DNA of 64,000 bases from Archangium primigenium (GTDB lineage: Bacteria > Myxococcota > Myxococcia > Myxococcales > Myxococcaceae), in contig NZ_JADWYI010000001.1 in the NCBI RefSeq assembly GCF_016904885.1, positions 2,728,001 through 2,792,000 of the forward strand, read 5' to 3'. The first letter of the stretch is position 1; every line of letters begins with the position of its first letter. The notes under the pieces are model-generated. The model had not been told where the DNA came from and ran no database searches. It saw only the letters and a program-made list of their open reading frames with translations. Position numbers and translations under genes: made by a program. Of this stretch, positions 57,240 through 62,773 are shown piece by piece.

Positions 57240-57953
57240 TCAGGGAGCCGTCGGCTCCAGCGCGTAGCCGAGCAGCTCCTCGGTCTCCTCGCCGGTCTCC
57301 TTCACCTTGCCGACACCGCGCACGAACCAGTACGTCTTGGTCTTGCTGTTGCCCGTCTTGCGCAGCACCACGGCGGTGAACGTCCCGGCGGGGACGGTGA
57401 CGGACTCCGCCTCGGACACCACCGTCCACAAATCCCGCGTCGTCTCCGTGGTGGGGGACTTGCCCGTCTTCTGCTTCGTCTCGGCGTAGGTCTCCACCCA
57501 GGTGGTGCCCTTCACGAGGTGCTCGGGGCTCATGTCCACGTGGAGCTTGGCGGGGTTCCACCACTCCTCGCTCTTGGCGCTCGTGGTCCCGGCGTCGAAG
57601 GACTGCTCGCGGTAGCGCAGGAGGCGCTCGCCCGAGACGGTCTGCCAGCTCAGGGTGACCTCCCCGTTGCTCTTGCGGGACGTCACCCGGTGGGCCTTCT
57701 CGGCCGACAGCGGCCCCGTGCCGCCCACGGCCTCCAGCGCGCCCACGGACAGCTCCTTCTCCGAGACGGTGCCCGACACGGTGACGCGGTACGTCCACCG
57801 GTGGCCCTCGGCCCACGGCAGCAGCGCGCCTTGCGTTTCCTGGACCTCCCCGCCGTTGTCTCCGTCGGTGCCGGTGTCCGTGCCGCCCGCCACGCCGCAG
57901 CCGGTGGCGAGCCAGCCGAGCACGAGCAGTCCCCTCCAGAGCGGGCGGCTCAT
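57240..57953 (-). CDS. Predicted lipoprotein, last gene of the dikinase-like operon
   Basis: The 237-residue protein has lipobox LATGC (cysteine at 19) and a Gly/Thr/Asp-rich linker. The mature domain is beta-rich with HRWTYRVTVSGTVSEKEL and VVSEAESVTVPAGTFTAVVL, a pattern of lipoproteins that resemble the LolA/LppX or DUF-type beta half barrels. No known family. Its start overlaps the stop codon of the dikinase-like gene by ATGA, so it is likely a partner. It converges on the Bat operon. Confidence 0.78.
   Translation of the reverse strand: MSRPLWRGLLVLGWLATGCGVAGGTDTGTDGDNGGEVQETQGALLPWAEGHRWTYRVTVSGTVSEKELSVGALEAVGGTGPLSAEKAHRVTSRKSNGEVTLSWQTVSGERLLRYREQSFDAGTTSAKSEEWWNPAKLHVDMSPEHLVKGTTWVETYAETKQKTGKSPTTETTRDLWTVVSEAESVTVPAGTFTAVVLRKTGNSKTKTYWFVRGVGKVKETGEETEELLGYALEPTAP
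57244..57258 (+). terminator. Compact hairpin after the Bat operon
   Basis: GGAGCC (57244-57249) pairs with GGCTCC (57253-57258) with a 3-base loop. It lies 20 bases past the batE-like stop codon, inside the last codons of the convergent lipoprotein gene. No T-run; activity uncertain. Confidence 0.35.
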
Positions 57954-59986
57954 TGGCCCCGTCCCGGGTGGGGGCGGGCCTGCTTGATGATGGCCTTGGG
58001 CGTCTCGCCCGGCTCCCCGTCGAACTTGAACTCCACGTCCATGGCGTACCACCCCGTGTTGCCCGCCTTGGGCCCGTACGCGGCCGAGAAGCGGTTGTGG
58101 ATGAGGTCCAGCGCCTGGCCCAGCTCGTACACCTGGGCGGCCGTCAGCACTTTCTGGCCGCTCGGCATGAGGTTGGAGCGGGACAGGTAGGTGATGGGCA
58201 GACCCGTCTGGTGGAACTCGTAGATGAACTGGTCGCTCGTCACGCCCGCGGGAGGATGCACCACCTCGGCGTCTCCGCCCACCTGGACGTTCACGTAGAA
58301 GCCCGGCTGGTTGCCCGTGGGATCGAAGGGGTTGGCCGTGAGCGCCACGCCGTTGGCCTCCTCGTCCGGGAAGTTGTGGTGCACGAGCAGCGCCATCACC
58401 ACGGACTTGTGGTCGATGCTGCTGTAGGTCCGCTCCTCGAAGGTCCGGAACAGCCAGACCGTCGCCCACGTCTTGCGGATGGCCTTGAGCACGTCGTTCC
58501 AGTCCGTCCGCGGGTCTCCCGTGTGCGACTCGTAGCAGCCCGCGCAGGGGAAGCCCTCCAGGTCCTCGCTGTTGGTGCTCGTGCGAAAGCGCATGGTCAA
58601 CCCGGGGTAGTCCTTCTCCAGCTTCGCCTTGAGCATCGCCTGGAACTCCGCGTTCACCGGCGCCGCCTTCATGGCCTTGCGGAACGCGTCGAGCTGCGCG
58701 TCGCGCACCTCGGGCTTGCTCTGGAACTCGGGGTCCGCGAGCAGCGTGTCCAGCCGCTCGTAGAAGCCGTTCTCCTGCATGAACTGGACGTAGTAGTAGG
58801 CCGGAATGGCGAACGCCTTGCGCATGGGGATGCCCGGCGTGTTGGCCATGACCCCGTAGTGCACCGCCTTGCCGCCGAAGGCCGGGACCGCCGCCTTGAT
58901 GGTCTCGCGCAGCGTGCCCTTGCTCTCGTCCACGAGCTTCTCCACGTCGCGCAGGTCCTTCACCGACAGGTCCACCGCGGGCAGCACGACGGGCGAGGGC
59001 TTGTGGGCCTCCCAGTAGGCATCGGCCTCGGCGGCGGAGACCTCCTGGATGCTCCAGTCGAACGCGCCCACCGTGAGTCGCACCCACTTGCCCTCGAGCG
59101 CCCGCAGCGTCGCGTTGCTCATGGCCCCGCGCAGGCCCATGTTGGGCGTCTTGCGGTTCTGCGACAGCACGTTCACGTGCGACAGCGGCGTCTGGAACTC
59201 CTCGCTGATGATGCCGAGGATGGTGGAGATGTCGTTGGGGATGCGGTCCAGCACGATGATGTCGCGGAAGGACAGGTACGTCGTCGTGAGCTCGGTCGCG
59301 GTGAGGAAGCGCAGCTTGCCCACCGAGCTGGCCAGGTTGAGCGGCTGGTAGTCGATGGCCGCGAAGAGCTCGTCCGTGCTCATCACCTGGATGGTGGAGG
59401 GCAGGTTCCGGGCCTCCTGGTGCACGGCCTCGGACGTGGGGTGGAAGACGAGCGAGGCGCCGAAGAAGGTCGCATCGCGCACGGCCCCGTAGAGCTGCGT
59501 GAGCATCTCGGCGGAGGCCGTGTCGTAGGGGGAGATCTCCAGCGCCCAGACCTTGGCCCCCTCATAGTAGGTGACGGAGCCGAGCACGAAGCGCCGGTCC
59601 GGCGAGTAGTACTCGGTCTGGTTGAAGTCCGCCAACGAGCCGACCACGGGCCTGCCCGCGCCGGAGAGGTTCTTGGACACGAACGCGTAGTGGATGGCGT
59701 ACTTCTGGCTGTTCTGGAAGTGGAGCGTGTCGTTGTCGTAGCGGTCCAGCACCACCTTGACCGAGCGGGCGCCGGGAATGCTCGTGTCGATGGGCTGCGA
59801 GGCCAGGGCGCTGAAGTCCGTGGCGCACGACAGGCGCTTGAGGGCATCGGGGGCCGTGGCGCCCTCGGTGAGCTGGCAGGACTCCTGGATGGGCTCCTGG
59901 GGCGTCTCGTCCGGGGGCGTCGTGGGATCGGGCGAGCACGCGAGCACGAGCGCGGCGCCCATCAAGAGCAGGAATGAGGATCTCAT
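57950..59986 (-). CDS. Lipoprotein with phosphohistidine and PEP-synthase-like ATP-binding domains
   Basis: The 678-residue protein has a lipoprotein signal (LVLAC, cysteine at 17), a Pro/Thr linker and a domain of unknown fold (about 40-250). A swivelling phosphohistidine-type segment (about 255-290) follows, with TPLSHVNVLSQNRKTPNMG and the histidine H270. Then comes an ATP-binding domain of the PEP synthase/PPDK type: GGKA at 371-374 and RFRTSTNSEDLEGF (466-479) then CAGCYESHTGD. The order phosphohistidine then ATP domain is that of alpha-glucan water dikinases (GWD/PWD), not of PEP synthase. A dikinase outside the cytoplasm would lack ATP, so the lipoprotein location is puzzling. It overlaps the next gene by ATGA. 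Confidence 0.83.
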   Translation of the reverse strand: MRSSFLLLMGAALVLACSPDPTTPPDETPQEPIQESCQLTEGATAPDALKRLSCATDFSALASQPIDTSIPGARSVKVVLDRYDNDTLHFQNSQKYAIHYAFVSKNLSGAGRPVVGSLADFNQTEYYSPDRRFVLGSVTYYEGAKVWALEISPYDTASAEMLTQLYGAVRDATFFGASLVFHPTSEAVHQEARNLPSTIQVMSTDELFAAIDYQPLNLASSVGKLRFLTATELTTTYLSFRDIIVLDRIPNDISTILGIISEEFQTPLSHVNVLSQNRKTPNMGLRGAMSNATLRALEGKWVRLTVGAFDWSIQEVSAAEADAYWEAHKPSPVVLPAVDLSVKDLRDVEKLVDESKGTLRETIKAAVPAFGGKAVHYGVMANTPGIPMRKAFAIPAYYYVQFMQENGFYERLDTLLADPEFQSKPEVRDAQLDAFRKAMKAAPVNAEFQAMLKAKLEKDYPGLTMRFRTSTNSEDLEGFPCAGCYESHTGDPRTDWNDVLKAIRKTWATVWLFRTFEERTYSSIDHKSVVMALLVHHNFPDEEANGVALTANPFDPTGNQPGFYVNVQVGGDAEVVHPPAGVTSDQFIYEFHQTGLPITYLSRSNLMPSGQKVLTAAQVYELGQALDLIHNRFSAAYGPKAGNTGWYAMDVEFKFDGEPGETPKAIIKQARPHPGRGQ

Positions 59987-60009
59987 GGGGTCAGTCTCGG
60001 GGCTGGGGT

Positions 60010-61935
60010 TCAGGGAGTGGTGGCGAAGCAGTAGATGGCGCCGTAGCCGCCCGCGCCGCCCACGGTGGGCGTGCCGTTGCCGCCCCCGTTGTCGACGAGG
60101 TTGACGCCGGCCGCGCAGCCGGGCACCGAGTGGTCGGACAGCCAGTGGGCGCCATTGCCGGTGGTCGCGCCGTTGCGCGGCCAGGAGTGGCCACACATGG
60201 GCTTGCCGGTGGAGCCCACGGAACTCGTCCAGTCGTTGCAGGTGTTGCCCTTGGTGCCGGAGAACCTGCCCTGCTTGCTCGAGCCGGTGAGGACGTCGTG
60301 GTTGTCGACGCCCTGGTGGTTGGGCTCGCCGCGCTCGTTGGGCAGGTCGTTCTTGATGACGGCATCCGACGGCGGGCGGTACGCGCTCAACAGGCTGGCC
60401 TTGTCCTGCGCCACGAGCCGACCCATGCGGTCGTACCAGGGGCCCTCGCCAATGCGGTCGATGGCGTTGATGGCCGCGCCGCCCACGCCACCCGTGGACG
60501 CGCTGAGGAAGGCGTGCCACTCCTTCTGGCCCGCGCCGGGCAGGGCCATCTCGGCGATGGTGCGGCAGATCTTGTCCGCGCCCGCCAGGCCGGTGTTCTC
60601 GCCGTAACGCAGGTCTCCACCGAAGCCGTTCGGGCTGCCGGACAGCTGGCGCATGGCCTCGATGCTGGTCACGAAGAAGCTGAACGGGGGAAGGGTCGGC
60701 ACCGTACCGCTGTCGGGCGTACCGCTGTCGATGGTGCCGCTGTCGGGCGTACCGCTGTCGACGGTGCCGCTGTCGGGGGTGCCGCTGTCGACGGTGTCAC
60801 TGTCGGGCGTACCGCTGTCGGGCGTACCGCTGTCAGGCGGGGTCGTTCCGCTATCGGGAGTGCCGCTGTCTGGCGTGGAGGTCCCGCTGTCGGGCGTCTC
60901 GGTCGGCGGCGTGGTCGTGCCGCTGTCGGGGGTCTCGGTCGGGGGCGGGGTCGTGCCACCGCACGTCAGATCCGCCCGGCAGGTCTGTCCCGAGGGGCAA
61001 TCCTCGTCCGTGCTGCATGACACGAGGCCCGGGATGACGACCTCACGGCTCACCTGCGAGCGGACCAGCAGGTCCACGCAACCCGAGGCGAGCTGGGCGG
61101 AGTCCGCCGTGCGGCGGCTGAGGGTGATCTTGGGGAAGCCCGCGATGCCCCGATCGACCAGCTGGGACACCAGGCCCGCGGGCAGGGTGAAGCTGCCCGT
61201 GTCCGGGACGTTGTCGCACTCCACCGAGGCGGCGATGCCTCCGTGGTGCGCCAGGTCCAGGAGGACGTGGATGCGCGCCGCGCTGGAGTTCGTGGAGGGG
61301 GTCCAGGAGAGGGGCACGGGCTTGCCCTTCTCGATGACGATGTCCGCCTCGGCCACGGTGAGCGCGTCCACGCCCTGGCCGCGCAGGGTGAAGGCGGGCA
61401 GGTCCGCGCCGGTGGCGGCGAGCTGGATGTTCGCGCCCGTGTAGAAGCCCGGGAAGGGCAGGGGCGTGGAGCTGCTGGAGTAGAACCGGGCCGAGTTGGG
61501 GCTCATGGCGAGCGCCGCCTTGAGGCCGGTCACGTTCACCGTGCCCACGTTCTGGGAGGTGGGGTAGGGGATGCAGACCCCGCCCTCGCCGCAGGTCTGC
61601 GAGGAGCCGCAGGCCGGATTGCAGAACAGCGCGCGGCCCACCAGCAGGCGGCAGGCGCCCTCCTCGGCGGCGAGGGTGCGCACCGTGCTCGGGATGACGC
61701 CGTTGCGCACGTTGCCCTGGACCGCGGTGTAGCCGTCCAGGTTCTCCACGGTGAACTGCCCGAGCCGCGCGCTCGCGTCACACGGCGTGTACGCGAGGGG
61801 GCTGGGGTTCTCCTGTCCGGGGGGCGTCTCTTCTCCCGGGACGGTCGGGTCGGGCGTCGTGGAGCCGGAGTCGGGGCCACAACCGCTCAGCAGGCACAGC
61901 AGCGGGGAGAGAACGAGCCAGGCGGGTGTCTTCAT
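60010..61935 (-). CDS. Lipoprotein with Asp-Ser-Gly-Thr repeat and DUF1554-like C-terminal domain
   Basis: The 641-residue protein has lipobox CLLSGC and a Pro/Thr/Glu linker. A beta-rich domain holds cysteine-rich segments CGSSQTCGEGGVC and CSTDEDCPSGQTCRADLTC. A spacer of thirteen PDSGT-type pentapeptides comes next, then a C-terminal domain (about 430-641) of the DUF1554 type (FFVTSIEAMRQLSG, GLAGADKICRT, GNTCNDWTSS, YCFATTP). The domain is nearly identical to that of the next protein. It lies 23 bases before the dikinase-like gene and is 28 bases after the smaller DUF1554-like gene. Probably a surface protein; ligand unknown. Confidence 0.85.
   Translation of the reverse strand: MKTPAWLVLSPLLCLLSGCGPDSGSTTPDPTVPGEETPPGQENPSPLAYTPCDASARLGQFTVENLDGYTAVQGNVRNGVIPSTVRTLAAEEGACRLLVGRALFCNPACGSSQTCGEGGVCIPYPTSQNVGTVNVTGLKAALAMSPNSARFYSSSSTPLPFPGFYTGANIQLAATGADLPAFTLRGQGVDALTVAEADIVIEKGKPVPLSWTPSTNSSAARIHVLLDLAHHGGIAASVECDNVPDTGSFTLPAGLVSQLVDRGIAGFPKITLSRRTADSAQLASGCVDLLVRSQVSREVVIPGLVSCSTDEDCPSGQTCRADLTCGGTTPPPTETPDSGTTTPPTETPDSGTSTPDSGTPDSGTTPPDSGTPDSGTPDSDTVDSGTPDSGTVDSGTPDSGTIDSGTPDSGTVPTLPPFSFFVTSIEAMRQLSGSPNGFGGDLRYGENTGLAGADKICRTIAEMALPGAGQKEWHAFLSASTGGVGGAAINAIDRIGEGPWYDRMGRLVAQDKASLLSAYRPPSDAVIKNDLPNERGEPNHQGVDNHDVLTGSSKQGRFSGTKGNTCNDWTSSVGSTGKPMCGHSWPRNGATTGNGAHWLSDHSVPGCAAGVNLVDNGGGNGTPTVGGAGGYGAIYCFATTP
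60704..60930. repeat. 15-bp coding minisatellite (PDSGT pentapeptide)
   Basis: Units of the type GTACCGCTGTCGGGC and GTGCCGCTGTCGACG repeat about thirteen times, each encoding [PVI]-D-S-[GD]-T on the minus strand. The spacer separates the cysteine-rich domain from the DUF1554-like domain. It is in frame and could vary in copy number. Confidence 0.88.
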
Positions 61936-61963
61936 GGGGGGCATGTCCTGTCTGGGCGGCATG

Positions 61964-62773
61964 TCAGGGCGTGGTGGCGAAGCAGTAGAGGGCGCCGTAG
62001 CCGCCCGACCCGCCCACGGTGGCCGAGCCATTGCCGGGACCGTTGTTGGAGAGGTTGACGCCAGCGGCGCAGCCGGGCGCCGAGTGGTCGGCGATCCAGT
62101 ACGAGCCGCTGCCGGTGCTGGAACTGCGGGGCCAGGAGTGGCCGCACATGGGCTTGCCGGTGGATCCCACGGCGCTCGTCCAGTCGTTGCAGGTGTTGCC
62201 CTTGCTGCCCGAGAAGGTGCCCTGTTTGGTCGAGCCGGTGAGGACGTCGTGGTTGTCGACGCCCTGGTGGTTGGGCTCACCGCGCTCGTTGGGCAGGTCG
62301 TTCTTGATGGTGGCGTCCGCCGCCGGACGGGACGCGCTCAGCAGGCCGGCCTTGTCCTGGGCCACGAGCCGGCCCTTGCGGTCGTACCAGGGGCCCTCGC
62401 CGATGCGGTCGATGGCGTTGACGGCGCCGCCCGTGGCGCTCCCGGTGGAGGCGCTGAGGAAGGCCCGCCACTCCTTCTGGCCCGCGCCGGGCAGGGCCAT
62501 CTCGGCGATGGTGCGGCAGATCTTGTCCGCGCCCGCCAGGCCGGTGGCCTCGCCGTAGCGCAGGTCTCCACCGAAGCCGTTCGGGCTGCCGGACAGCTGG
62601 CGCATGGCCTCGATGCTGGTCACGAAGAAGCTGAACGTGGCGCCATCGGTTCCACCGCCCTCGGGCGTCTCGGTGCCGGGCGAGGTGGAGTCGGTGGGCT
62701 CGGCGTTACACGCGGCGATGCCGCCACCCAGGCAAAGGGTGGCGATCACGGGCAGCACGAAGGAAGCGCGCAT
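61964..62773 (-). CDS. Lipoprotein with DUF1554-like domain, paralogue
   Basis: The 269-residue protein has a signal sequence ending GGGIAAC (lipobox, cysteine at 22) and a short Thr/Glu/Gly linker. A DUF1554-like domain (about 45-269) follows, matching the C-terminal domain of the neighbouring protein almost residue for residue. GGA lies upstream of ATG 62773. The two genes are in tandem, head to tail, 28 bp apart, so this is a duplicated module with different N-terminal parts. It is the first gene of the four-lipoprotein operon. Confidence 0.87.
   Translation of the reverse strand: MRASFVLPVIATLCLGGGIAACNAEPTDSTSPGTETPEGGGTDGATFSFFVTSIEAMRQLSGSPNGFGGDLRYGEATGLAGADKICRTIAEMALPGAGQKEWRAFLSASTGSATGGAVNAIDRIGEGPWYDRKGRLVAQDKAGLLSASRPAADATIKNDLPNERGEPNHQGVDNHDVLTGSTKQGTFSGSKGNTCNDWTSAVGSTGKPMCGHSWPRSSSTGSGSYWIADHSAPGCAAGVNLSNNGPGNGSATVGGSGGYGALYCFATTP

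Follow-up and report, generated by a model that had tools for sequence, protein, structure and literature searches.

A conserved lipoprotein module around a predicted exported phosphohistidine dikinase-like protein in Myxococcota

Introduction

The PPDK-type enzymes and phosphohistidine dikinases of known function are, to our knowledge, cytoplasmic or plastid-located and use ATP there. Here we describe an operon of four predicted lipoproteins in Archangium primigenium, a predatory soil bacterium, in which one product, P0001 (family C), resembles these enzymes; it lies in a stretch of 64,000 nucleotides (RefSeq assembly GCF_016904885.1, contig NZ_JADWYI010000001.1, positions 2,728,001 to 2,792,000 of the forward strand), hereafter the window, whose numbering is used for its features. 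Glucan water dikinase (GWD) and phosphoglucan water dikinase share with P0001 a phosphohistidine domain followed by a C-terminal ATP domain, although P0001 is much shorter, is a bacterial lipoprotein and carries no Pfam glucan-binding module. Rifampin phosphotransferase (RPH), phosphoenolpyruvate (PEP) synthase (PEPS) and PPDK have an ATP-grasp fold, a K22/R117/T136/E297 set and a catalytic histidine that are all matched in P0001, whereas P0001 has the reverse domain order, is predicted to be exported, and lacks both the PEP/pyruvate barrel and the rifampin domain.

The partner proteins have described relatives as well. DUF1554/endostatin-like proteins, which we take to be represented by the Leptospira Len family, are matched by the B domain of the operon (P0003 under the Pfam cut-off), here paired with a dikinase-like partner. 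A further parallel is offered by the CotH, polyphosphate polymerase (VTC) and DUF4956 genes, known together as an accessory group in the Pel loci of Gram-positive bacteria (PMC7112168): here too a kinase-type protein that is exported has polyphosphate polymerase and DUF4956 as neighbours and lamin-tail domain (LTD) proteins as partners. In contrast to that group, family C has the PPDK fold rather than the CotH kinase fold, and two partner lipoproteins, A and B, are added. By its defining features, P0001 is a member of the PEP-utilising superfamily and is not a GWD, RPH, PEPS or PPDK. Searching the open-licence literature for an extracytoplasmic or lipoprotein dikinase returned nothing relevant, nor any system of this make-up; this is weak evidence of absence, in line with a preliminary description of the operon, drawn from the sequence alone, which knew of no such system.

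A dikinase-like lipoprotein with a conserved active site

The PPDK_N domain of P0001 is matched with an E-value of 5e-21 (75.8 bits against a cut-off of 27) and recurs in 71/71 family C members. The preceding GWD1_pHisD segment is weak in P0001 itself (residues 255-320, E 0.08, 13 bits against a curated cut-off of 27); it is matched in 34 of the 71 members (best E 7.6e-6), and the PEP-utilisers mobile domain in 10. The phosphohistidine domain thus comes before the ATP domain and, because the histidine segment of the family C profile aligns to the swivel domain of PEP synthase (profile match 4.6e-33), the order of domains is swapped relative to that enzyme. An AlphaFold2 model built from a 71-row alignment (pLDDT 90.2, pTM 0.84) has as its top Foldseek matches in the PDB rifampin phosphotransferase with AMPPNP (1.3e-15), PEP synthase (1.1e-12) and PPDK (9e-6). 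Against the NCBIfam rifampin phosphotransferase model, P0001 reaches 53.5 bits where the cut-off is 999, and its histidine domain precedes the ATP domain instead of being C-terminal. No Pfam match to a PEP/pyruvate-binding barrel was found in P0001, which stops after PPDK_N at residue 678, nor any carbohydrate-binding Pfam domain at E<=1, nor the CotH domain PF08757. Identity with GWD was rejected on the missing glucan-binding module and the sub-threshold GWD1_pHisD match.

Equally important is the conservation of the predicted catalytic residues. H270 is kept in 83/83 homologues, down to 25% identity, and over the same range the set H270, K373, R468, S487, E652, Q669 and R671 is retained in 81-83 of the 83; residue 487 is serine or threonine, while K373, R468, E652, Q669 and R671 are kept in all or almost all homologues. 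All seven positions rank within the 24 best conserved of 678 (nominal P 3e-11). Equated by sequence and profile alignment rather than by superposed coordinates, their counterparts in the rifampin phosphotransferase RPH-Lm are K22, R117, T136, E297 and His825, of which Lys22, Arg117 and Thr136 are important for the reaction and Glu297 is not (PMC4844700). Conservation of the whole set rules out a degenerate active site and, because it extends to homologues of 25% identity, makes a loss of ATP chemistry unlikely. The preliminary description had recognised a dikinase-like protein with H270 intact and GWD domain order, to which the structure prediction now adds a fold of the PPDK family of ATP enzymes; one of its three alternatives, that ATP use had been lost, is contradicted.

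Export outside the cytoplasm, although predicted, is well supported, because almost every orthologue has a lipobox and cysteines are paired. Automated calls on distinct orthologues, in which most misses have a lipobox by eye or are truncated at a contig end, find one in 51/59 C, 43/53 A, 43/55 B and 12/12 D proteins. Cysteines C37 and C54 of family C are paired wherever the alignment covers both columns, and C481 and C484 are both present in 42 orthologues and both absent in 16 (co-occurrence 58/58), a pattern that fits disulfides in an oxidising compartment. Signal sequences are also found in many distant C paralogues, some of which bear LTD domains. A cytoplasmic enzyme or a wrong start codon was rejected on lipobox conservation; the possibilities, raised earlier, that the protein is not exported or truly starts downstream of its signal run counter to the conserved signal peptide and the paired cysteines.

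The C481/C484 pair lies in a CAGC sequence adjoining a catalytic motif of the ATP domain, replaced by GAGL in 16/58 orthologues, always pairwise, and is possibly a redox switch.

Conservation of the A-B-C module

Families A, B and C form a phylum-wide module. A GTDB-wide scan for P0001 orthologues returned 50 loci, nearly all in Myxococcota. Among 195 Myxococcota genomes, C homologues occur in 102 and a close orthologue in 26; strong A matches (E<1e-70) were found in 25, every one with a C orthologue, leaving a single genome (G194) with a C orthologue and no strong A match. At the level of loci, counted over 49 dereplicated loci with enough flank, both A and B stand beside C in 40, and at stricter dereplication in 37/45, 28/36 and 21/29, in the gene orders ABC, BAC and CAB. 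This recurrence across loci, together with the co-occurrence of A and C across genomes, rules out a chance neighbourhood; its restriction to one genome, named in the preliminary description as a ground for refutation, does not apply, as it is present in dozens of genomes.

Several variants of the module were also seen. In L110 (G096:C1:4960000-4973000) the C gene is spread over three frames and A is disrupted too, adjoining an apparently intact B. A further C subgroup (G005:C224, G012:C442) shares about 50% identity in two blocks with insertions between them, and in G005 an A-like domain adjoins. In L027, C and A homologues lie on a contig binned as Phycisphaerae, reflecting either real transfer or misbinning.

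Association with CotH, VTC and DUF4956 loci

The recurrent association of the module with VTC, DUF4956, CotH and LTD is new in this analysis. In 23/49 loci a VTC or DUF4956 gene is no more than 9 kb away from C, and counting CotH raises this to 27/49; CotH was counted only at E<=1e-30, because some LTD sequence seems to be built into the home-made CotH profile, which also matches LTD-only proteins. With about one or two VTC genes per positive genome, chance adjacency to C is well under 1%. Pfam confirms the neighbours as VTC (4e-30), DUF4956 (2e-45) and CotH (8e-61), alongside LTD and HlyD. A single row of CotH, VTC, DUF4956, A, B, C and D is present in a Pyxidicoccus locus (L004), where the C protein has 77% identity to P0001, and in genome G127. 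VTC loci taken regardless of C mostly carry CotH and DUF4956, and D-family lipoproteins adjoin VTC/DUF4956 in loci without C; one of these proteins (27% identity, 4e-14) is encoded near 3.61 Mb in the genome of the window.

LTD domains are fused to distant C paralogues in one exported protein at three loci (L082, L083 and L086); in parallel, the open reading frames of CotH proteins in the window's genome also match the LTD profile. A cluster in the same genome (L146, G000:C1:8004174-8010144) comprises CotH, VTC, a phosphate-selective porin of OprO/OprP type (PF07396, 1.2e-8), a thymidylate-kinase-like protein and DUF4956.

Proposed function and alternative explanations

We consider it probable that the operon specifies a module for phosphate transfer outside the cytoplasm, in which C works with A and B on a surface substrate. 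C would be a Sec-exported lipoprotein that retains dikinase chemistry, an analogue of CotH built in GWD order. By homology, its C-terminal ATP-grasp domain would phosphorylate H270 on the preceding swivel domain, which would then hand the phosphate to an acceptor; that catalysis takes place outside the cell we infer, as we do the acceptor and the donor. Because C lacks a PEP/pyruvate barrel, the acceptor site would have to lie in its N-terminal domain or in A/B, and the lipid anchors on all module proteins make the membrane surface the probable location of the acceptor. A and B probably serve to bind or present this acceptor, which may be a glycan, lipid or protein of the surface, or to organise the complex; co-conservation makes a physical surface complex plausible, with D (P0004) as a putative accessory lipoprotein. 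The donor could be ATP or another nucleoside triphosphate, either released by lysed prey or neighbours or exported, or possibly phosphate supplied through the VTC/DUF4956 apparatus. A broader proposal, which we put forward only tentatively, is that Myxococcota possess a dedicated system for phosphorylation outside the cytoplasm: a lipid-anchored phosphohistidine dikinase with two closely linked lipoprotein partners, often beside CotH, would modify surface polymers with ATP or polyphosphate delivered across the membrane by VTC/DUF4956.

Several observations weigh against this proposed function. ATP is scarce outside the cytoplasm. C occurs without A or B in 4/49 loci. Foldseek gave no informative structural relative for the N-terminal domain of P0001, and comparison of domain A with PDB structures gave no informative match, only fibronectin-type beta domains of low TM. 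Furthermore, the window's module is a detached copy: no CotH/VTC/DUF4956 group was found in its 18-kb surroundings (L111), and the 10-11 CotH genes and two VTC genes (3.61 and 8.00 Mb) of the genome lie away from it.

The scarcity of ATP outside the cell would favour an exported pseudo-dikinase, whose retained fold and nucleotide site serve to bind or sense a ligand such as ATP from lysed prey without phosphotransfer, and so would the dispensability of E297 of RPH-Lm, counterpart of E652 (PMC4844700). However, even in homologues of 25% identity the swivel histidine and the residues that contact phosphate vary little or not at all, and a protein that only binds would have no need of H270, which leaves this explanation quite improbable. 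Another way around the scarcity is a different donor, namely polyphosphate or another VTC-made carrier that leaves the cell by way of DUF4956 and an outer-membrane route, so that C and CotH would be polyphosphate-fed. The frequency of VTC/DUF4956 near C agrees with this idea, as do the porin and thymidylate-kinase-like genes in the CotH-VTC-DUF4956 cluster of the window's genome and the coupling of polyphosphate synthesis to translocation by eukaryotic VTC (PMC9911596), but the nucleotide-type ATP-grasp site is fully conserved, and we regard such a donor as unlikely. That the signals mislead and P0001 is a cytoplasmic metabolic dikinase would accord with the location of the known PPDK-type enzymes; yet each of the four families keeps a lipobox throughout the phylum although the lipobox sequences are unrelated, the cysteines are paired, the partners are lipoproteins too, and distant paralogues combine signals with LTD domains, so this explanation is scarcely credible.

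If the proposed phosphotransfer function is correct, an exported dikinase whose active site is intact and whose genes are linked to those of CotH and polyphosphate polymerase would make it testable how, and with what donor, bacteria phosphorylate extracellularly. It would also give a functional setting to the bacterial VTC and DUF4956 families, so far uncharacterised, and to the DUF1554-like lipoproteins.

Operon layout and partner domains

The features of the operon are collected in Table 1. Its genes are separated by 28 bp, then by 23 bp, and finally overlap by 4 bp (ATGA), and the four products carry the lipobox strings GGGIAAC, CLLSGC, ALVLAC and WLATGC behind Sec-type signals; coordinates, spacing and lipoboxes are all as first described.

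Table 1. Features of the lipoprotein operon, in window coordinates
Feature	Coordinates	Strand	Evidence
P0003, family B lipoprotein, DUF1554/endostatin-like	61964..62773	-	lipobox Cys22
P0002, lipoprotein, fusion of domain A, repeat linker and domain B	60010..61935	-	lipobox Cys19
Domain A of P0002, residues 45-326, all-beta, conserved cysteines, module-specific	60958..61803	-	45-sequence alignment
Repeat linker between A and B in P0002, TPDSGT-type	60694..60957	-	tandem repeats
Domain B of P0002, residues 415-641	60013..60693	-	85% identity to P0003 B domain
P0001, family C lipoprotein: N-terminal, phosphohistidine and PPDK_N ATP domains	57950..59986	-	lipobox Cys17
H270 codon of P0001, predicted catalytic histidine	59177..59179	-	83/83; aligns with PEP synthase swivel His
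PPDK_N ATP domain of P0001, residues 369-673 (K373, R468, S487, E652, Q669, R671)	57968..58882	-	Pfam match
P0004, family D, beta-rich DUF3108-like lipoprotein	57240..57953	-	lipobox Cys19; DUF3108_like 5e-4, under cut-off

The operon, the enzyme type and the conserved partners of the preliminary description stand, while it missed the A-B fusion and the CotH/VTC/DUF4956/LTD link. It had listed the partners as two DUF1554-like lipoproteins and one beta-rich lipoprotein; all three are lipoproteins, but P0002 is an A-linker-B fusion rather than plainly DUF1554-like. DUF1554 is matched by 38/38 family B members at E<=0.1 (best 1.3e-6) and Endostatin by 3, with P0003 at 23.9 bits, under the Pfam cut-off of 27.5. 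The AlphaFold2 model of domain A reaches a pLDDT of 94.8. Most relatives encode A and B as two neighbouring lipoproteins, whereas in P0002 the two domains are fused through a linker of Pro/Asp/Ser/Gly/Thr repeats. Imperfect tandem repeats of 15, 30 and 36 bp at 60703-60957 encode this linker.

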